A stretch of DNA of 64,000 bases from Comamonas sp. GTDB lineage: Bacteria > Pseudomonadota > Gammaproteobacteria > Burkholderiales > Burkholderiaceae_C. Both the position numbers and the translations under genes were made by a program. Below the pieces are notes generated by a model, which ran no database searches, was not told where the DNA came from, and was given only the letters and a program-made list of their open reading frames with translations. Each line of letters starts with the position of its first letter. Positions within the stretch are counted from its first letter, which is position 1. The stretch spans positions 1 to 64,000 of the forward strand of contig JAITLR010000015.1 of assembly GCA_031277805.1 (NCBI GenBank). The letters are read 5' to 3'. Below, piece after piece: positions 10,347 to 40,843 of the stretch.

Positions 10347-10843
10347 CCAGCCATCTGCTGAACCACATCCGCCCTGCCCTGCCCAGTGATGCGGCAGGCA
10401 TCAGCGAACTGCTGCACGGTATAGGCTGGTTCAAGGCTTATGAGGACCGCAGCGCTGCACAGAACACCGAAGCCATTCAATCACTGTTGATCAGCGCTCA
10501 TGCAGAGCCCGAGCGCAGCCTGCTGCTGGTGGCCGAAGACGCCCAACAGCGCCTGAATGGCTATTGCGCCATCCACTGGCTGCCCGTAGCCGTGCTGCAG
10601 GGCTGGGAAGGCTATGTCAGCGAGCTGTTCATTGCCGAGCGTGCACGCGGCCTGGGTCTGGGCCAGCAACTGCTGGACGCTGCTACCGAGGCTGCTCGCG
10701 CGCGCGACTGCCTGCGCATCTGGCTGGTCAACAACCGTGAGCGTCCGTCCTATGCACGGGGCTTTTATTCACAGCAGGGCTGGTCCGAGCAAGCCGAGAT
10801 GGCCCGCTTTGTACTGCCCCTGCGAACCATAGACAACTCATGA
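10343..10843 (+). CDS. GNAT-family N-acetyltransferase
   Basis: A 166-residue GNAT protein. The acetyl-CoA motif A appears as [20 protein letters not shown] (near residues 94-113, Q/RxxGxG/A type) and motif B near [14 protein letters not shown]. The substrate cannot be read from the sequence. Both ends overlap their neighbours by ATGA (glpR and glpK), so it is translationally locked into the glycerol operon. Acetylation of a Glp protein or of a small molecule is possible but speculative. The start at 10343 is chosen for the overlap; ATG at 10328 is an alternative. Confidence 0.85.
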
Positions 10844-12348
10844 CCGCCTATCTGCTTGCCCTGGATCAGGGCACCTCCAGCTCCCGCTCCATCGTGTTTG
10901 ATGCCCAAGGCCGCCTTGTGGCCTCGGCACAGCTGGAGCTGCCGCAGATCTATCCGCGCCCCGGCTGGGTGGAACATGACCCGCAGGAAATCTGGCGCAC
11001 CCAGCTGACCACCGCCAAGGAAGCGCTGACCAAGGCCGGCTTGACCGCACGCGACATCCGCGCCGTGGGCATCACCAACCAGCGCGAAACCACCGTGGTC
11101 TGGAACCGCAAGACCGGCGCGCCCATCCACCACGCCATCGTCTGGCAGGATCGCCGCGCCGAGCCCATCTGCGCCGCGCTGCGCGAAGCCGGCATGGCCG
11201 ACACCATCCAGCAAAAGACCGGCCTGCTGATCGATGCCTACTTCTCGGGTTCCAAGCTGCAATGGCTGCTGGACCATGTGCCCGGTGCCCGCGCGGCTGC
11301 CGAAGCCGGCGATCTGGCCTTTGGCACGGTGGACTGCTGGCTGATCTGGCAGCTCACGGGTGGCGCATCAGGTACAGGTCGCCATGTCACCGATGTGAGC
11401 AATGCCAGCCGCACCATGCTGTTCAATGTGCACACCAACCAGTGGGACGACGAGTTGCTGGCCGCGCTGCGCATTCCCAAATCGCTGCTGCCCGAAGTGC
11501 TGCCTTCGGCCGCCGACTTCGGCAAGACCGCTGCGGATGTATTGGGCGGAGAGATTGCCATCGGTGGCGTGGCTGGCGACCAGCAATCCGCGCTCTTCGG
11601 TCAGGCCTGCTTCACAGCCGGCATGGCCAAGAATACCTATGGCACAGGCTGCTTCATGCTGATGCATACGGGCGGCAAGTTCCAGACCTCGGCCAACGGC
11701 CTGCTGACCACGTCGGCCGCACAGCCCACGGCCACGCCCCAGTTTGCGCTGGAGGGCAGCGTGTTCGTGGGTGGCGCCGTGGTGCAATGGCTGCGTGACG
11801 GCCTGCAGGCCATCGAGCACAGCGGTCAGGTGCAGCAACTGGCCGAAAGCGTACCCGACAGCGGCGGCGTGATGATGGTGCCTGCCTTCACCGGCCTGGG
11901 CGCCCCTTACTGGAAACCTGACGCACGTGGCACCATCACCGGCCTGACGCGCGGCACCACCATTGCCCACATCGCCCGCGCAGCGCTGGAATCCATCGCC
12001 TACCAAAGTGCGGCCCTGCTGTTGGCCATGAGCCGCGATGCCGTCGCCCGCGGCGGTACACCGGTGAGCGAGCTGCGCGTGGACGGCGGCGCCTGTGTGA
12101 ACAATCTGCTGATGCAATTCCAGGCCGATCTGCTGGGCATTCCCGTCGTGCGCCCTGCCTGCGTGGAAACCACGGCCCTGGGCGCAGCCTATCTGGCAGG
12201 CTTGTCCACCGGCGTATATCAGAGCACCGAAGAGCTGTCCGCGCTATGGAAGGCCGAGCGCCGCTTTGTGCCCACGCTGAGCAAGGAGCGCGCCGACGAA
12301 CTCATGCAGCGCTGGGAGCAGGCCGTGCGCCAGACCACGGCCGCCTGA
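10840..12348 (+). CDS. glpK: Glycerol kinase
   Basis: A 502-residue FGGY kinase that phosphorylates glycerol to sn-glycerol-3-phosphate with ATP in the cytoplasm. It starts [20 protein letters not shown], the phosphate-1 motif of GlpK. Other hallmarks are [29 protein letters not shown] and the C-terminal FGGY signature [20 protein letters not shown]. Length equals E. coli GlpK. The start overlaps the stop of the acetyltransferase gene. The product feeds GlpD, and a terminator follows at 12410. Confidence 0.97.
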
Positions 12349-32083: not shown

Positions 32084-33358
32084 CTACTGCGGCGCCACCA
32101 GGTCGCGGTAATAACCAGGCAGCGCAAACAGGCCGCCATGAGTCTGTTCGTTGTAGTACTGCAGGCCCCGAACCTTGCGCTGCTTGATGCGCTGCGCGAC
32201 CTCTTGTGCAGTCAGCTTTACAGGGTCCAGGCTGTCAGAGGCCACCGCCAGTCCCCAGTACGCACCGTAAAGCGGGATGTAGAGGCCGTAACAGCGCACC
32301 ACGGCAAACTGCTCGCGCAGACTGCGCGCCAACTCCGCCACCTGGTCGCCGTGGAATACCGGGCTGCCCAGGTGCAGCACCAGAGCACCGCCCGGCGCCA
32401 GCACGCGCTTCATGCGCGCCAGCGATTCAGAGGCGTAGAGAGCGCTGGCAGGTGTGTCTGGATCTGTCAGGTCCATGAAGGCCAGGTCAAAACGCTCGTC
32501 CGTGCCATCCACCAGCGCCATGCCATCACCAATGCTGACATGCACACGCTCATCGTCCAGCGCACCGTGGTGCACGGCCTGCAGGTGTTCGCGAGAAAAC
32601 CTGACCACGGCCTCGTCCAGTTCGGCCAATACCACGCGCTCGATGCTTGGGTGCTTGAGCAGTTCTTCGGCCGCGCCACCGTCTCCACCACCCAGAATCA
32701 AGGCCTTGCGCGGCGCCGGGTGCGCCATGGCAGCCGGATGCACCAGGGCCTCGTGATAGAAAAATTCCTCTTTCTCAGAAGTCATGAAGCGGCCATCAAT
32801 TCGCAGCACCTTGCCGAACTGCGGTGTCTCCAGCAACTCCAGCTGCTGAAACGGCGTCTGCACCTTCTCACAGGCCGTGGCGCGATAGCCAAAGCGACTG
32901 TGCGGCGTAAGCTGTTCCTGCACCCAGTGGGCTTCGGACTCCGGCAAGCAATCCACAGCCGCGTCATCCGAAGCCGTGGCCATGCTGATGTCGCCACGCA
33001 TCAGTTGCTGACGCAGCACCCGTTTGGGAGCAAACGCGTCGATCACGCCCTCCATCAACTGCCGCGCCTTGCCCGAGTTGTCATCGGAAAAATTGCAGAC
33101 ATAAACGTCGATGGTGACACTGCCTGTCTCCGGCCAGGTGTGAATGGCCAGATGAGATTCGGCCAGCAAAACCGTACCTGTCACGCCGCCGGGCTGGCCT
33201 TCATAAGGCGGAAACTTCACCCATCTGTCATCCACCAGGGTCAATCCTGAAACCGCAGTCTGGTCGCGGCACAGCTGGGCGATGGCGTCGGCATCGAGCA
33301 TGTAGCGCTCGTGGCCTGTGCATTGGTAAAGATCGGCAGTCAGGTGCAGTCCGTGCAT
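32084..33358 (-). CDS. Fused S-adenosylmethionine decarboxylase-spermidine synthase (SpeD-SpeE)
   Basis: A 424-residue fusion. Residues 1-125 are a pyruvoyl AdoMetDC-type domain: Glu67-Ser68 in [14 protein letters not shown] is the self-cleavage site, with H73 and C88 (IDVYVCNF) at the same spacing as S63/H68/C83 of the T. maritima enzyme. Residues about 135-424 are spermidine synthase: [24 protein letters not shown] (220-228) and MDLTDP with D296 and D299. Both active sites look complete, so one chain could decarboxylate and transfer aminopropyl. Some SpeD homologues act instead on ornithine or arginine, so the decarboxylase substrate is not certain. Confidence 0.88.
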
Positions 33359-34257: not shown

Positions 34258-34775
34258 GCCGGGCCCGCAGAGGCCTAGGCTATGGGTGACTTGTCAAGAA
34301 TCGATTGGCACTCGCCCTCTTCGCAACCATCATCGACCAAAGGCGGCTGGTCTGCACTTCGGTTGCACAGCGACAATTCCGCCTCGCCCCACTGATGTTC
34401 GCAAACAGCCCCCCCCAATACCCCGCCTTCACTCCACTGGCAACGCCAATAATGACTGCGATCGGCCTATATCCCTTGGTGATTTTTTCTTAATTACACA
34501 GCCCCAGTGAAAATATAAAAAAATTTCTGAATTTACATATATATTAACTCTCATCAATTAAATAAGTATCTAAAAATCATCGATATAATTTATATGAATT
34601 AATGATAAATACCAATTTCTTCATCAAGTTCAAGAAAATAGATAAAATATAGTCCAATTGGGTTAATTGTAAGCACCAAGTTGACATATTCTCAATGAGG
34701 GCACAGTCACAGCACTTGGTTTAGATGTTTGCTAGCATGGCTCGCACCCGGTCAAACAAACAGGAAGCAAACCAA
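34258..34775. other. AT-rich region upstream of the monooxygenase gene
   Basis: No gene is supported. From about 34480 to 34700 the sequence is strongly AT-rich (runs such as ATATAAAAAAATTT and TATATATTAA), in sharp contrast to the surrounding GC-rich DNA. It contains many possible -10 boxes. It probably holds the promoter of the monooxygenase-esterase pair and marks an acquired segment boundary. A frame at 34305-34493 could be a transporter remnant, but I could not support that. Confidence 0.6.
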
Positions 34776-36239
34776 ATGAAATATGACGTCATCATTATCG
34801 GAGCTGGAATGTCCGGCACCTTGGCAGGTATTAAACTCCAAGCTCAAGGTAAAAAATTTCTGATTATCGAGAAATCCCAAAAAATGGGAGGAACTTGGCG
34901 CGACAATACTTACCCTGGTTTAACGTGCGATGTGCAATCACATGCCTATACCTACTCCTTCGAGCCCAATCCTGAATGGACGCGCGCATTCCCTTCCGGC
35001 CCTGAAATTCATTCATATTTCGAGAATGTCTTCAAGAAATACAAGCTCGCGGAAAATACTCTTTTCAATACGGAAATCGTGAATGCCAAGTGGCAGGAGG
35101 ATCATTGGCAGCTCACCGACCAGCATGGCCAGCAGCACACCGGCTCCGTGGTGATTGCTGCCACCGGTGTTCTCCACCACCCGCATCGCCCGGATATCCC
35201 TGGCTTGGCAGATTTCAAGGGCAGCCTCCAACACACCGCCGTATGGGATCACTCCGTACCACTGGACGGCAAGAAGATTGCCATCATCGGCAACGGATCA
35301 ACCGGTGTGCAACTGGTCTCCGCACTGAGTGCTCGTGCGCATGTGCGTCATTTCCAACGCACACCCCAGTGGATCTTTCCTGTGGAGAACATGGTTTTCA
35401 CCGAAGAGCAGCGCGAAGAGTTCCGCAGGAACCGCGATCTGCTCATTTATCTCCACGATGAACCCACTTACGTTGCAGCAGTGGAGCGCTTTACCAACGC
35501 CGTGCTGGATCCCGACTCTCCGGAAATCATGGAAATCCAGAAAGTCTGCCAGGACAATCTGGACAACAGCGTTGCAGACCCGATCCTGCGCAGCAAACTC
35601 ACGCCCAGCTATCGCGCGGGCTGCAAACGTCTGATCTACTCCCCCGATTACTACCGGGCCATCCAGCATCCGAACTCTCGGCTCATCACCGAAGGCATTG
35701 AACGAGTGGAGGCCACAGGCATACGCACCAGCGACGGCCAGCTCCATGAGCTGGACATCATTGCATTGGCCACAGGTTACAAAGCTGACCGCTTTGTACG
35801 CCCGATGCAGGTCATTGGTGTGCATGGCAAGACACTGGACCAGGCCTGGGAAAACGGCCCGACCGCCTACAAGGCAATTTCGATGCCCGACTTCCCCAAC
35901 TTCTACTTCATGAACGGGCCGTCGTCTCCGGTTGGCAATTTCTCGCTCATCGATACGGCAGAAATGCAGTGGGGCTATATCAACCAACTCATTGAACGAC
36001 TGGAAACCGCCAATATTGCAGGACTCTCTGCCCGACATCAGGCACTCGACACCTACGACCAGGAACGCAGGGAGGCCGCCCGAAACTCGGTGTTTGGCTC
36101 CGGCTGCACCAGCTGGTACCTGGACAAGAATGGCATCCCCAATACATGGCCCTGGTCGCAGTCGCGCTTCCGGGAAGAGATGCTCGCACCCGTTTGGCAA
36201 GACTATGCCGAGCACCACCTGCAGACTGTCGCAGCTTGA
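34776..36239 (+). CDS. Type I Baeyer-Villiger (flavin) monooxygenase
   Basis: A 487-residue FAD/NADPH enzyme. It starts MKYDVIIIGAGMSGTLAGIK, with the FAD fold GAGMSG (10-14) and AGGAAG upstream. The Baeyer-Villiger fingerprint FKGSLQHTAVWD (147-158) matches F-x-G-x3-H-x3-W-D exactly, and the NADPH fold IIGNGSTGVQ follows (170-179). Such enzymes insert oxygen next to a carbonyl, turning ketones into esters or lactones. The esterase gene starts 28 bases later, the expected next step. The N-terminal codons are AT-richer than the neighbours, suggesting transfer. Ketone specificity cannot be read; a steroid is possible from context. Confidence 0.9.
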   Translation: MKYDVIIIGAGMSGTLAGIKLQAQGKKFLIIEKSQKMGGTWRDNTYPGLTCDVQSHAYTYSFEPNPEWTRAFPSGPEIHSYFENVFKKYKLAENTLFNTEIVNAKWQEDHWQLTDQHGQQHTGSVVIAATGVLHHPHRPDIPGLADFKGSLQHTAVWDHSVPLDGKKIAIIGNGSTGVQLVSALSARAHVRHFQRTPQWIFPVENMVFTEEQREEFRRNRDLLIYLHDEPTYVAAVERFTNAVLDPDSPEIMEIQKVCQDNLDNSVADPILRSKLTPSYRAGCKRLIYSPDYYRAIQHPNSRLITEGIERVEATGIRTSDGQLHELDIIALATGYKADRFVRPMQVIGVHGKTLDQAWENGPTAYKAISMPDFPNFYFMNGPSSPVGNFSLIDTAEMQWGYINQLIERLETANIAGLSARHQALDTYDQERREAARNSVFGSGCTSWYLDKNGIPNTWPWSQSRFREEMLAPVWQDYAEHHLQTVAA

Positions 36240-36266
36240 GCAAATTCACTAGGCAAGGACACGGTC

Positions 36267-37205
36267 ATGCAGATACACCCTGAACTCGCTGCTGCGCTGG
36301 CGCAACTTAGCGGCCTGCCGCCTATCGACTACCAAACCATGCCGATTACCAGCATCCGCCAGGTGCTGGACCATCTGCCCATGCCTCCATCCGGGCTGGA
36401 AATGCACGAGGTACGCGACCTCACCATTGGCGGCCCTGAGTCGCCTTTGGCGGCACGCTTGTACCGCCCCACAGCGGACGATAACGCACCAATGGTCGTC
36501 TTCTTCCATGGAGGAGGCTGGTGCATTGGCACCATGGACACACACGATGGCCTTTGCCGCCACATTGCATTGCTGACAGGTATGAATGTGTGTTCGGTCG
36601 ACTATCGGCTCGCACCAGAGTATGCCTTCCCGGACCCGCTGAATGACGCCTATGCGGCCACCCGATGGATCGCAGCACATGCACATGAGTTGCACAGTGA
36701 CCCATCCCGCATCCTGGTCGCGGGCGACAGTGCAGGCGGCAATCTGGCCATCGCAACCTGCTTGAAAGCGCGTCACGATCAATGGGACGGAATTTGTGGG
36801 CAGCTGCTGCTGTACCCTGTGTGCGATGCAAGAGCCGACAGCGCCTCCTACGCGCTATATGGCGACATGCCCTTGCTGTCCAGCGCCAACATGCAGCAGA
36901 TGTGGGCCCACTACCACCCCGCCCAACCCATCAGTCCCCTGGCATCCATTCTGGAAAATGAAAGCCTTGCAGGCCTGCCCCCCGCCGTCGTGGTGACCGC
37001 AGAACTGGACATCCTGCGTGACGAGGGCAATGAACTGGCGCGGCGACTGGCCCTGGATGGGGTTGAAGTGATGCACCAACAAGCCCAAGGCATGGTTCAC
37101 GGCTTTGCCAGCTTCAGCACAGCACTGCCGCACGTCGCCAGCATCCTGCGCGATGCCTGCACAAGGCTGCAGTCGCTGGTTGGGACACAGGCAAGCACTG
37201 CGTAG
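36267..37205 (+). CDS. Alpha/beta hydrolase, HSL family esterase
   Basis: A 312-residue cytoplasmic esterase of the hormone-sensitive-lipase family. The oxyanion motif HGGGW is at 81-85, the nucleophile Ser155 in GDSAGGN, Asp248 in ELDILRDEG and His278 in GMVHGF complete the triad. AAGGAC lies upstream. It follows the monooxygenase by 28 bases, so it probably hydrolyses the ester or lactone that enzyme makes. A terminator lies at 37268. Confidence 0.9.
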   Translation: MQIHPELAAALAQLSGLPPIDYQTMPITSIRQVLDHLPMPPSGLEMHEVRDLTIGGPESPLAARLYRPTADDNAPMVVFFHGGGWCIGTMDTHDGLCRHIALLTGMNVCSVDYRLAPEYAFPDPLNDAYAATRWIAAHAHELHSDPSRILVAGDSAGGNLAIATCLKARHDQWDGICGQLLLYPVCDARADSASYALYGDMPLLSSANMQQMWAHYHPAQPISPLASILENESLAGLPPAVVVTAELDILRDEGNELARRLALDGVEVMHQQAQGMVHGFASFSTALPHVASILRDACTRLQSLVGTQASTA

Positions 37206-37267
37206 CACCGGGCTCAATCAACTGCTTGGCACGTGGCCCTTGCCCCATCAGCCACTTTGCGAGACCG

Positions 37268-37299
37268 GGCCATCACCTGACAAGACGATGGCCTTTTTC
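37268..37299 (+). terminator. Terminator after the esterase gene
   Basis: GGCCATC (37268-37274) and GATGGCC (37287-37293) form a 7-bp stem followed by TTTTTCT, 63 bases past the esterase stop. It ends the monooxygenase-esterase unit before the convergent LuxR gene. Confidence 0.75.
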
Positions 37300-37429
37300 T
37301 CAGAGCAGATGCGCGGATCGGAACCCGGCGCTCAAGTAGGTATTACCTCAGCAGCAACCAGCCGGCTCTGAAATGCCGGCACTCTTGGTGCACAGCCTGG
37401 ACGATTGCAGTGCTCTGTCGCCCGGCCAC

Positions 37430-38704
37430 TCATTTATTCCCTAGCCACGCAACACTGTTGAGGAAAATGCGCACCAGTTCAGTTTGCCTGCGCACACCAG
37501 TCTTGGAAAAAATTGAACGCAAGTGCGCTCGCGCCGTATTGGGACGAATATTCAAGGCTTCCGCTGTTTCCTCCAGTGACAGGCCATTGGCCAATTGAAT
37601 CGCCAGTGCAGTCTCTGCCGGCGTGAGCTGAAACAGTTGCTGCGCAAGTTTGATCGATGGATCCGCCTTGCCGCTTGTATCGCGCACAAATACGGCAACA
37701 CTGGGGCGCTGCTTCCCTTCGGTCCACTCATCGGGAGAGATGCTCTGTACCACCACGCCCCAATTGAGTTGGCCGGACTGGCGCCCCACTGAAACACCTT
37801 CCGTGATCGACAACTGCGAAACCCGGGTCTGCATCAGTGCATCACGAATCAGGCGCTGCAGCTTGCGATTGTCATTGGCATAGTTCGCTTCCAGCCTTCC
37901 ACCGCTCACCTTCAAGCCATCTTGCATCTCCAGAATACCGGTGGCCGCAGGGTTGCTTTCGATGACCATGCCATTTTGGTCAAGGATCACCACGCCTACC
38001 ATCAGTTGGGCCATGGCCCGGCTGTACAGCGATATCACCTGGCGATCCTGATGCACCGAAAGATGCAGATTCAGTGCGCGCTTCACATGCGGCACCAACA
38101 TGTTCATGAACGCTCTGTCCTGTGCATCAAAGTCAGATGAGGTCTCAGGACGAGTCACGCGCAAGGCGTATGTGCAACCATCCTTCGTCGCGACATCCGC
38201 TGCAATCACGTGAAAGCACTGCATGTCCTTGCAGAAGTCGTTGTAGTACATGGACGCTCGCCACTCCGCCTCGGAGAGCACATCAGTCACCGTGACGACC
38301 TGGTCGGTTGGCATTCCCCGAAATGGACACACTGCGGCAATTTCGGAAGGATAGACTGCTGCGTCACGGTACTCACCGGCAGAAGAAACAATCAAGCCCA
38401 GATCAGCTTGCCCGGGCAAGCGCACGATCAGTGCAGCATAGTTGGCCCTCAGTTGATCGCGGATAGCTTCCAGACATGGCTGCCACCAGCTCTTGGGGTC
38501 CAATGCCGCGTCATACAGCAAGCTCGTAATGCGGCTGAACTGCTCCGCGCTGATAGGCCTGCAATCCTGCTCCGCCGAGGCTGCCTTTTTATCTGTCGCG
38601 GGAACAATGGCCGAGCGCATAAACAACGGCACATCCTTCAGGACGCAAGCCATATTACGGGTGTCATAGTCCGCAAAACCCATCTTAGCGAAAGCGCTTT
38701 CCAT
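37430..38704 (-). CDS. LuxR-type transcriptional regulator
   Basis: A 424-residue regulator. The C-terminus has a LuxR/GerE helix-turn-helix: LTPAETALAIQLANGLSLEETAEALNI, then RPNTARAHLRSIFSKTGVRRQTELVR (about 360-415). The middle (about 230-340) has a PAS-like segment VVILDQNGMVIESNPAATGIL, and the first part has no recognised receiver. The domain plan is similar to TeiR, the LuxR-type regulator of testosterone catabolism in C. testosteroni, but I cannot claim orthology. It lies convergent to the monooxygenase-esterase pair. Start MESAFAKMGF at 38704 has AAGG upstream. Confidence 0.85.
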   Translation of the reverse strand: MESAFAKMGFADYDTRNMACVLKDVPLFMRSAIVPATDKKAASAEQDCRPISAEQFSRITSLLYDAALDPKSWWQPCLEAIRDQLRANYAALIVRLPGQADLGLIVSSAGEYRDAAVYPSEIAAVCPFRGMPTDQVVTVTDVLSEAEWRASMYYNDFCKDMQCFHVIAADVATKDGCTYALRVTRPETSSDFDAQDRAFMNMLVPHVKRALNLHLSVHQDRQVISLYSRAMAQLMVGVVILDQNGMVIESNPAATGILEMQDGLKVSGGRLEANYANDNRKLQRLIRDALMQTRVSQLSITEGVSVGRQSGQLNWGVVVQSISPDEWTEGKQRPSVAVFVRDTSGKADPSIKLAQQLFQLTPAETALAIQLANGLSLEETAEALNIRPNTARAHLRSIFSKTGVRRQTELVRIFLNSVAWLGNK

Positions 38705-39089
38705 CGTGGTCAACCTTCTGAGCAAGTGGATGGAGGGCTCACTGAATCTCGAACAGGCCGGCGGCCCTCAAACCTCCACCAATGCATACGCACACCCCGT
38801 CGACGCTCCTTCTGCGACGCATGCCTCACACATTGAGACCGGATACATCGAGCGGATCGCCGATGGCGATTGCACCACCATTGACCTTGAAACAGCCATC
38901 GGGAATACCCAGATGTGCACAACAATGAAGCACTTGATCGGCTCAGGCCGACTTCCAGTCGGCCGAGCAACTCTCCAACGGCATGTTTCCGAAGACCGCG
39001 GCTCGCTGTTAAAGAACAGGGGGGATCTGGTGAACTCGATTTTGATAAAGATCGTTGGCAGAGGTGCTCACCACACCTTGGTCAAGCCG
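38705..39089. other. Gap between LuxR gene and SDR gene
   Basis: Besides the thiolase remnant this 385-base gap contains an inverted repeat GGCCGACT-TCC-AGTCGGCC (38946-38964), extended by GCTC/GAGC on the outside. No intact gene is supported in either direction. Confidence 0.55.
38768..38942 (-). pseudogene. Decayed C-terminal fragment of a thiolase
   Basis: On the minus strand one frame (38942-38829) reads AHLGIPDGCFKVNGGAIAIGDPLDVSG, matching the thiolase region VNxxGGAIAxGHPxG with the catalytic His replaced by Asp, then stops at 38826. A second frame continues with MCEACVAEGASTGCAYALVEV and a stop at 38768, resembling the C-terminal CxGGGxGxA..E-V of thiolases. So the last 50 or so codons survive with at least one frameshift. 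The rest of the gene is not recognisable upstream. It points to deletion of a beta-oxidation gene from this cluster. Confidence 0.65.
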
Positions 39090-39860
39090 TTAAGAGCGCT
39101 GCGAGGAGATGTTGCCACCATCGACCACCAGCTCCGCTGCCGTGATGTAGCTGGCCTCGTCCGACAGCAGAAATCGCACGACATTGCCGATTTCCTCCGG
39201 CATGCCCAGACGACCCAGCAAGATCCTGCGCTCGAAGGTGCCAGGCGGAAGCGCCTGGACCGCCGGCATCATCATGGGTGTGAGGATCTGTCCGGGGGAC
39301 ACTGCATTGATGCGTACCTTGTCCATTGCCAGGCGATCAGCCAGCGAACGAATCAGCGACAGCATCCCTCCTTTGGCCGCGCTATAGATCGGGTTGATGC
39401 TGTTACCCAAGGTCGCGTTGATCGAGGCTATCCCAACCACCGCCGAACCCGGATGAGCACGGAAATCCGGTAGCAGAGCCTGTGTCAACAACGCCAGCGG
39501 GCGCAGATGCACATTCATGCCAGCATCCCAGTTTTCCGGCGTGATGCCGTCCAGCGAGCCCATGTCCACCGTACCTGCTGCATGTACCAGGCCCCCAATG
39601 CTTGGCAGAGCGACACGAGCCTGATCGAGTGCCGGGGCTAACGCCGCTACGTCGCGCAAATCAACACCCACCCCTGCCGTCGCAACGCCAAACTCACGAT
39701 GGATGGCATCGGCAGCAGCCCGGGCCTTGGCGCCGTCGATATCAAACAAAGCTACCGGGCGGCCCACCACGGCAAGCGAACGAGCGCTGGCCAGCCCTAT
39801 GCCAGAAGCTCCACCGGTAATGACGACTCCCGTCTGCGGAGAATTCAATTGCGGATGCAT
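39090..39860 (-). CDS. Short-chain dehydrogenase/reductase
   Basis: A 256-residue classical SDR. The cofactor motif TGGASGIG is at 15-22, NAG is replaced by HAAG (93-96), and Ser146, Tyr159 and Lys163 (YSAAK) form the catalytic set. The acidic residue after beta-2 (FDID) suggests NAD(H). It acts on an alcohol or ketone that the sequence does not reveal. It is divergent from the 3beta/17beta-HSD-like gene, with 218 bases between the starts, and its 3' side faces the thiolase remnant. Confidence 0.85.
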   Translation of the reverse strand: MHPQLNSPQTGVVITGGASGIGLASARSLAVVGRPVALFDIDGAKARAAADAIHREFGVATAGVGVDLRDVAALAPALDQARVALPSIGGLVHAAGTVDMGSLDGITPENWDAGMNVHLRPLALLTQALLPDFRAHPGSAVVGIASINATLGNSINPIYSAAKGGMLSLIRSLADRLAMDKVRINAVSPGQILTPMMMPAVQALPPGTFERRILLGRLGMPEEIGNVVRFLLSDEASYITAAELVVDGGNISSQRS

Positions 39861-40078
39861 ACAACTACCTCACGATGAAAAGGAATTGCAGTCAAACGGC
39901 TGCAGCATGCGAGCGCCTTCCGCCCCGGACTTCAGACTCATCGGTGCTCGGCCTCAGCGAATGGCCCAGAGCATAGAAAGCTTTGCCTTTGCATCCATCC
40001 TTCAATCAGACTATGAACACATCAGGCAACTTGGCTAGAGTTCGCAGCGCATTGCATACCAACCAAGGAGATATCGAA
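39861..40078. promoter_or_regulatory. Divergent promoter region between the two SDR genes
   Basis: This 218-base gap separates the starts of two oppositely oriented dehydrogenase genes and must hold both promoters, perhaps with the site for the LuxR-type regulator. AAGGAGATAT is the ribosome site of the right-hand gene. No clear operator palindrome was identified. Confidence 0.5.
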
Positions 40079-40843
40079 ATGGACTCTCGTTTTGCCAAGC
40101 ATGTCGCGCTGGTCACCGGTGGCGCCAGCGGCGTGGGTTTGGAAGTCGTCAAGCTGCTGCACGCGCAAGGTGCCAGGGTGGCAATCAGCGACATCAATAT
40201 GGATGCCGGCAAGACGCTTGCGGCCGAGTTGGGCGAGCGCGCGCACTTCATCCATCACGATGTGAGCAGCGAAGAGTCCTGGCAAACGGCCATCTCCGAG
40301 GTCCTGAAGACCTTTGGAGGCCTCCATGTGCTTGTGAACAACGCGGGCATACTGCTGCCCGGTGATATCGAAACCGGCAAGGTTGCCGACTTGCGCAAGC
40401 TGCTTCAGGTAAATACCGAGTCGGTGTTCATTGGCTGCCAGCAAGGCATTCTTGCCATGAAGGAGCACGGAGGCTCCATCATCAACATCGCATCGCTAGC
40501 GTCGTGGATGCCTATGGATAACTATCCGGCCTACAGCGCCAGCAAGGCTGCCGTGGCCGCCTTGACCCGCGCAAGCGCCCTGCATTGCCGCAAACGAGGC
40601 TACGCCATCCGTGTCAATTCGGTGCATCCAGATGGCATCTATACGCCCATGTTGCAGGCCTCGCTCCCGGAGGGAGTGACCAAGGAAATGATCCTTCACC
40701 ACCCCAAACTCAATCCCGCAGGCCGCGCATACATGCCCGAGCGCATCGCACAGTTGGTCGTGTTTCTTGCTTCGGACGAATCCAGTGTCATCAGCGGAGG
40801 CGAGTTGCATGGAGACAATTCGGTGCTGGGCATGGGTCTGTAA
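40079..40843 (+). CDS. 3beta/17beta-hydroxysteroid dehydrogenase-like SDR
   Basis: A 254-residue classical SDR, the same length as the C. testosteroni 3beta/17beta-hydroxysteroid dehydrogenase. Long stretches agree with that enzyme from memory: ALVTGGASGVGLEVVKLL, VNNAGILLPGD, NTESVFIGCQQGI, VNSVHPDGIYTPM, and the C-terminal GMGL. TGGASGVG is the NAD site; Ser139, Tyr152 and Lys156 are catalytic. DIN after beta-2 suggests NAD. It would oxidise 3beta- or 17beta-hydroxyls, for example testosterone to androstenedione. The ATG at 40079 has AAGGAG upstream; upstream in-frame ATGs are not conserved. Confidence 0.85.
   Translation: MDSRFAKHVALVTGGASGVGLEVVKLLHAQGARVAISDINMDAGKTLAAELGERAHFIHHDVSSEESWQTAISEVLKTFGGLHVLVNNAGILLPGDIETGKVADLRKLLQVNTESVFIGCQQGILAMKEHGGSIINIASLASWMPMDNYPAYSASKAAVAALTRASALHCRKRGYAIRVNSVHPDGIYTPMLQASLPEGVTKEMILHHPKLNPAGRAYMPERIAQLVVFLASDESSVISGGELHGDNSVLGMGL

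Follow-up and report, generated by a model that had tools for sequence, protein, structure and literature searches.

What is the substrate of a Baeyer-Villiger monooxygenase (BVMO) that a Comamonas strain encodes beside an esterase, a regulator and two short-chain dehydrogenases? The genes lie in a 64-kb stretch of DNA from Comamonas sp. (assembly GCA_031277805.1; hereafter the window), which is part of contig C17 of the host genome (4.16 Mb, 86% complete). A sequence-only reading of the window had described four of them, all of which are real open reading frames at the positions it gave, and had proposed that they lead from progesterone, a widespread hormone pollutant, through testosterone acetate and testosterone to androstenedione. 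We found a fifth gene that it did not mention, a second short-chain dehydrogenase (SDR2), divergent from the gene for a 3beta/17beta-hydroxysteroid dehydrogenase (HSD)-like protein. From gene families, distribution and gene neighbourhoods, we consider it likely, with a probability of roughly 0.6, that the five genes are a module, induced by steroid, for taking the acetyl side chain off C17 of progesterone-type (C21, 20-keto) steroids and feeding the product into the host's testosterone pathway.

In this route the BVMO would insert an oxygen between C17 and C20, converting progesterone to its 17beta-acetate product, testosterone acetate, a reaction shown for a relative. The esterase, probably cotranscribed with the BVMO, would then free acetate and testosterone, and the HSD would turn the 17beta-hydroxyl into a ketone, yielding androstenedione, roles that family and context point to for both enzymes. 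Androstenedione would be degraded further by KstD and the tes enzymes, and the regulator would turn the module on when steroid is present. For SDR2 we can offer a guess, interconversion of hydroxyl and ketone on a steroid at a position such as C20 or C17.

Families of the five gene products

The BVMO carries two GxGxxG motifs as well as GGTWRDNTYPGLTCD and FKGSLQHTAVWD. It has the GxGxxG motifs around FxGxxxHxxxW[PD], plus [AG]GxWxxxx[FY]P[GM]xxxD, a set of patterns that we take to identify type I BVMOs. The exact fingerprint noticed earlier was recovered, FKGSLQHTAVWD being the sole FxGxxxHxxxW[PD] match in the six frames of the window. An alternative in-frame ATG at 34725 would give a protein of 504 aa; the nearest relatives start at the later ATG. 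The esterase had been placed 28 bases later, and indeed 27 nt separate the two genes, with the esterase start at the 28th base. Its match to PF07859 (233 bits) and the presence of HGGG, GDSAGG, DILRD and HGF assign it to the HSL family, which is marked by HGGG, GDSAGG and the Asp and His of the triad. Its best NCBIfam model, LipP1, gave 311 bits, below the cut-off of 350, and every best NCBIfam match of the five module proteins was likewise under its cut-off.

The regulator was confirmed as LuxR-type by a C-terminal GerE domain (Pfam) and could be placed further, in the TesR/TeiR family of C. testosteroni. It shares 71% identity with the gene that occupies the tesR position in C. testosteroni ATCC 11996 and 65% with the host's own copy at that position on contig C30. 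The tesR position here means the site beside the ring-degradation genes common to ATCC 11996 and C30 (85-96% identity), a name taken from the literature and not from a TesR sequence. In a 25-protein tree, the copies from the window and from the sister genome G027 formed a clade of their own, whose relation to the tesR-position genes was not settled. Roles of TesR/TeiR in testosterone degradation are described in PMC6678751 and PMC6895838. Pieces matching the C-terminal part of TesR-family proteins, perhaps gene remnants, were seen at C26:205099-205557 of the host genome and at C1:2124889-2125203 of G027 (82-83% identity to the end of the window protein), and a further TesR-like LuxR gene (41%) at C9:25935-27056 of the host genome adjoins a short-chain dehydrogenase.

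The HSD had been likened to the 3beta/17beta-HSD of C. testosteroni, and this likeness is borne out: the best Protein Data Bank (PDB) match is that enzyme, 1hxh, over the full length (402 bits), NNAG and YSASK (the YxxxK motif) are present, and identity to the ATCC 11996 gene is 73.0%. SDR2 matches PF13561/PF00106; among PDB entries it had no specific relative.

The BVMO belongs to the subfamily of an enzyme tested on progesterone

A 2025 paper reports that a Caenibius tardaugens BVMO of this subfamily turns progesterone into testosterone acetate (PMC12239570). Membership of the window BVMO was judged through the N. aromaticivorans homologue on pNL2, SARO_RS19410, as a stand-in for the Caenibius sequence; identity to it was 49.1% over 477 aa for the window BVMO and 48.9% for that of ATCC 11996. 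We took SARO_RS19410 to be Saro_3708 because a TetR gene comes next, as in PMC12239570, where Saro_3708 is given as 71% identical to the Caenibius BVMO shown to make testosterone acetate. The same paper names a homologue in C. testosteroni TA441, CTTA_RS14345, with 47% identity to the Caenibius protein EGO55_13845, a value near those for the window and ATCC 11996 BVMOs against the pNL2 protein. CTTA_RS14345 is probably the orthologue of the ATCC 11996 BVMO, since ATCC 11996 has one member of the subfamily (E 1e-100). An orthologous BVMO (70% identity) is also present in C. testosteroni KF-1, which grows on progesterone (PMC3746432). The nine Comamonas BVMOs formed one clade at 100/100 in an 83-row tree, which was built leaving out four rows (L043, L056, L091 and the host's own paralogue on C26).

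The BVMO tracks steroid genes across Comamonas

The host genome holds a steroid ring-degradation cluster on C30, with KstD, TesA2/HsaA, TesA1, TesD, TesE, TesF and TesG and, as neighbours, DUF1302, DUF1329 and MMPL proteins. TesF and TesG scored above their NCBIfam cut-offs. The other tes/kstD proteins scored below theirs (KstD 519.5 bits to NF009478, TesA2/HsaA 379 bits to NF045629), so the remaining names rest on best match and gene order.

Among 53 Comamonas genomes, tesA2 was found in 18, and a TesR-family LuxR gene in the same 18 and in none of the other 35. The BVMO was present in 17 of the 18 tesA2-positive genomes and in 0/35 tesA2-negative ones, the single miss being G035 (87% complete, about 670 contigs). 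HSD was found in 16/18 and 0/35, respectively; the misses were G035 and Comamonas sp. NoAH (G019), which has the BVMO and no HSD at the cut-off used. TrpE identity was at least 93% for 17 tes-positive genomes and 85% for NoAH, and it was 94% for G049, which has none of the four genes; no TrpE match was obtained for G008. Counting the co-occurrence as 18 independent cases was dropped on this kinship. The pattern comes down to two or three independent events, all in agreement.

Steroid genes near related BVMOs in other bacteria

Genome contigs were scanned for the BVMO and the best 80 of 98 loci were taken, 73 of them from outside Comamonas. With the host genome's own steroid proteins as a panel and a threshold of at least 0.35 of the self score, a steroid-panel gene was found in 16/73 of these neighbourhoods, and the core tes/kstD/DUF/MMPL genes alone in 12/73. 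TesEFG, DUF1329 and SDR2 (68-73%) occur near the BVMO in two Pseudoduganella and one proteobacterium, TesA1, TesA2 and SDR2 in Collimonas, TesEFG in Ralstonia soli, and KstD (50-51%) in three Pseudomonas. Relatives of SDR2 (60-73%) lie near the BVMO in five of the 73 loci, four of which also have tes genes.

As a control we used the neighbourhoods of the ribulose-phosphate epimerase gene (rpe). Forty of the 73 loci were hand-picked after the neighbour list was known, and one without an rpe match was removed, leaving 39. At the 0.35 threshold the wider panel was hit in 14/39 BVMO and 0/39 rpe neighbourhoods, and the core genes in 10/39 and 0/39; at 0.25-0.30 the wider panel gave 16/39 and 4/39. 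The control stretches were shorter in total (703 kb vs 814 kb). Since the 39 were selected with the neighbour list in view, 16/73 is the fairer figure. Relatives of the other module proteins also recurred beside the BVMO, with 0/39 in the rpe set each time: esterase (at least 60 bits) in 6/39, LuxR in 7/39, SDR2 (at least 250 bits) in 5/39 and HSD (at least 150 bits) in 4/39. Relatives of all five stand together in Aestuariicella hydrocarbonica (L046, 10034-18234), and positions 48-2000 of that locus hold ring-degradation relatives.

Two BVMO copies a few kb apart were seen in Stutzerimonas stutzeri K1 (L022, 10001 and 13660) and Pseudomonas sp. A-1 (L024, 10001 and 15406). One locus, L044, comes from a metagenome bin labelled Klebsiella pneumoniae; its BVMO groups with those of uncultured gammaproteobacteria, and the bin is perhaps mislabelled.

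A constant BVMO-esterase unit and two HSD copies

The esterase lies 3' of the BVMO in all seven other Comamonas loci first compared (C. testosteroni ATCC 11996, JL40, NFYY023 and SWCO2, C. suwonensis, and Comamonas sp. RQ_Bin_4 and NoAH), with 54-62% identity, and in 9/9 once G027 and G036 are added. A short-chain dehydrogenase gene directly precedes the BVMO, in the same orientation, in the seven loci and in G036 (251 aa in ATCC 11996 and G036). The window and G027 have none there and carry SDR2 downstream instead. No close HSD or LuxR match was found within the seven BVMO loci. The BVMO-esterase pair is thus the constant unit, and an adjacent HSD is not constant. Where HSD and BVMO share a contig, they are about 32-37 kb apart in 10 other genomes and 8 kb apart in G036; with these distances, and with NoAH lacking HSD, the HSD was dropped as a fixed partner of the BVMO.

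The window HSD is a diverged copy away from the canonical locus. Its identity to the HSD genes of ATCC 11996, G027 and G036 is 70.5-73.0% (71-73% for the canonical genes of ATCC 11996 and G027). Those three genes share 87.7-92.1% among themselves (92.1% between ATCC 11996 and G027). The gene neighbourhood of the window copy differs from that of the canonical, 1hxh-type gene. G027 has the module with the same flanks (site L142; BVMO, esterase and LuxR 94%, SDR2 97%), and at the HSD position it retains the flank that precedes the gene, together with 80 bp that match the 3' portion of HSD. Its canonical HSD is at another site, beside a PHB-regulator gene. The corresponding site of the host genome (C26; L237, about 10829-10955) is colinear on both sides, contains no N and has no HSD gene. 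The two genomes therefore each keep one HSD copy, and opposite ones, which suggests that the window and canonical copies are interchangeable. The module copy may instead have been acquired by transfer.

That seven other Comamonas loci have the pair without HSD and LuxR, and that G027 has lost HSD from the site, might be taken to mean that copies of HSD and of a TesR-family gene came by chance to lie next to an unrelated BVMO-esterase operon. We regard this as very improbable, because BVMO, esterase, LuxR and SDR2 have stayed together in G027 at 94-97% identity and because BVMO loci elsewhere repeatedly have relatives of LuxR, esterase, HSD and SDR2 close by, against none of the 39 controls.

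Layout of the locus

The features of the locus are listed in Table 1. Both flanks of the module are housekeeping genes by Pfam: on the left, a HAD-family (gph-like) gene and a gene for an AdoMet decarboxylase-spermidine synthase fusion; on the right, rpe. The fusion protein (32084-33358, minus strand, 424 aa) has an S-adenosylmethionine decarboxylase domain and a spermidine synthase domain in one chain.

Table 1 Coordinates of the module genes and intergenic stretches in the window, with the basis of each assignment
Feature	Position	Strand	Basis and remarks
AT-rich intergenic stretch 5' of the BVMO gene; presumed promoter and operator of that gene	34258..34775	+	GC 42.9% (whole window 60.0%); conserved in part in G027, a sister genome
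Type I BVMO, 487 aa	34776..36239	+	Motifs, Pfam, family, tree; substrate inferred
HSL-family esterase, 312 aa	36267..37205	+	PF07859, motifs, adjacency to BVMO; substrate inferred
LuxR-type regulator, TesR/TeiR family, 431 aa	37430..38725	-	GerE domain, 71% identity, tree
Short-chain dehydrogenase SDR2, 256 aa	39090..39860	-	PF13561/PF00106; relatives near BVMOs elsewhere
Divergent intergenic stretch SDR2/HSD; presumed shared promoter region	39861..40078		Sequence layout; GC 51.8%
3beta/17beta-HSD-like dehydrogenase, 254 aa	40079..40843	+	1hxh match, 73.0% identity, NNAG and YSASK, reciprocal loss

Which ketone does the module oxidise?

The route from progesterone to androstenedione gained a steroid context, in the form of the host's tes cluster, the co-occurrence with tesA2, the TesR/TeiR-family regulator and the steroid neighbours elsewhere; the HSD did not hold up as a constant member of it. 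Several observations weigh against this assignment. The alignment of the BVMO with steroid and cyclohexanone monooxygenases that had been proposed as a check gave about equal distances over the aligned fragments (33.3% identity to the steroid monooxygenase and 34.1% to the cyclohexanone monooxygenase) and decided nothing either way. Among solved structures the best match of the window BVMO is a cyclohexanone monooxygenase, ahead by one bit; in favour of the steroid reading, the best match of the C. testosteroni BVMO is the steroid monooxygenase (226 bits), followed by cyclohexanone monooxygenase (217). A substrate call by likeness to one or the other was dropped, given these identities and nearly tied PDB scores. 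The window subfamily is split at 100/100 from the fragments of both, including the steroid monooxygenase (PDB 4aos, 4ap1 and 4ap3), which we take to be the Rhodococcus rhodochrous enzyme and which has the type I motifs in common. The pNL2 protein falls in a different clade from the Comamonas BVMOs, and the order of clades that would make the pdc-like clade their sister is weak (82/65); no esterase relative turned up in the surroundings of the pNL2 BVMO, out to about 6 kb. At the chosen cut-off, 57/73 neighbourhoods outside Comamonas held no steroid-panel gene, and the close kinship of the tes-positive genomes reduces the pattern within the genus to the few events given above. In ATCC 11996 (L084, 3190-9991) the unit of short-chain dehydrogenase, BVMO and esterase lies outside the tes cluster and adjoins, on the side away from HSD, two acyl-CoA ligases and a relative of 3-keto-5-aminohexanoate cleavage enzyme, with further short-chain dehydrogenases also adjoining, and the genes between the pair and HSD had no strong steroid-panel match except a DUF1329 gene beside HSD, which argues against a pure steroid cluster there.

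The acyl-CoA ligases and keto-acid cleavage enzyme of ATCC 11996 and the many neighbourhoods without steroid genes would suit a BVMO-esterase pair for the breakdown of a ketone other than a steroid (a cyclic, alkyl or isoprenoid methyl ketone), with HSD and regulator separate from it. Such pairs are known for other ketones, such as 4-sulfoacetophenone in C. testosteroni KF-1, where SAPMO and a 4-sulfophenylacetate esterase are encoded side by side and act in sequence on a methyl ketone, as predicted for the module pair. That system differs in its xenobiotic aromatic substrate and in being framed by insertion elements, and it is likened here by description, not by sequence. The presence of the BVMO in 17 of 18 tesA2-positive and none of 35 tesA2-negative Comamonas genomes, the TesR-family regulator, and steroid neighbours elsewhere against 0/39 controls all speak for steroids, and we judge a non-steroid substrate distinctly improbable. 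The steroid context is well supported. Cyclohexanone, which the sequence-only reading had given as an example of its main alternative, a cyclic ketone, has lost ground.

The same context would suit any steroid ketone. The BVMO might lactonise the D-ring 17-ketone or oxidise a bile-acid or ring-degradation intermediate, with the esterase opening the lactone or ester; fungal BVMOs make testololactone (PMC12239570), and in some bacteria the BVMO adjoins ring-degradation genes. We consider this unlikely, though less so than a non-steroid substrate: the relative that was tested acts on the C20 ketone, acetate release and oxidation of a 17-hydroxyl are a better match for an HSL esterase and a 17beta-HSD, and a lactone would divert androstenedione from the tes route encoded in the genome.

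Removal of the progesterone side chain thus remains the reading we prefer. An extended form of it, which we put forward tentatively and at slightly less than even odds, is that the locus may be a self-contained, steroid-switched cassette from progesterone to androstenedione, made up of the BVMO, the missing testosterone-acetate esterase, a second 17beta-HSD and its own TesR-family regulator, in which the HSD copies would be equivalent and each sister genome would have lost a different one.

Relation to known systems

The closest described system is the pdc cluster of Caenibius tardaugens (EGO55_13845-13860), for which four genes are listed, no esterase among them (PMC12239570). It resembles the Comamonas module in having a LuxR-type regulator and a type I BVMO from the same subfamily, with proteins of roughly 490 aa, and in that the hosts degrade steroids by the 9,10-seco route. 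What sets pdc apart is its luciferase-like monooxygenase and TetR regulator; the Comamonas module has an esterase, SDR2 and HSD. None of the five module genes is a luciferase-like or TetR gene, and for this reason filing the locus as a pdc cluster was dropped. The steroid monooxygenase likewise makes testosterone acetate from progesterone in vitro (PMC12239570). The testosterone-acetate hydrolase is called unknown in PMC12239570, and the esterase next to the BVMO is a candidate for that enzyme. PMC6678751 and PMC6895838 mention a putative esterase gene in the hsd60-hsd70 operon of Caenibius, at that time named N. tardaugens.

The locus had been thought not to be a described Comamonas cluster. 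This stands in part: the reaction has been shown for a BVMO of the subfamily and a TA441 homologue named (PMC12239570), and a search of the open-licence literature by titles and abstract openings, with most subscription papers outside it, found no report of the Comamonas BVMO-esterase pair in steroid degradation.

The progesterone oxygenation step was assigned in 2025, in an alphaproteobacterium (PMC12239570). The BVMO-esterase pair that tracks the tes genes across Comamonas provides candidates for both oxygenation and acetate hydrolysis in a classical steroid-degrading genus, together with a candidate regulator, and the opposite HSD losses in sister genomes offer a natural hint that the diverged copy may do the same job.

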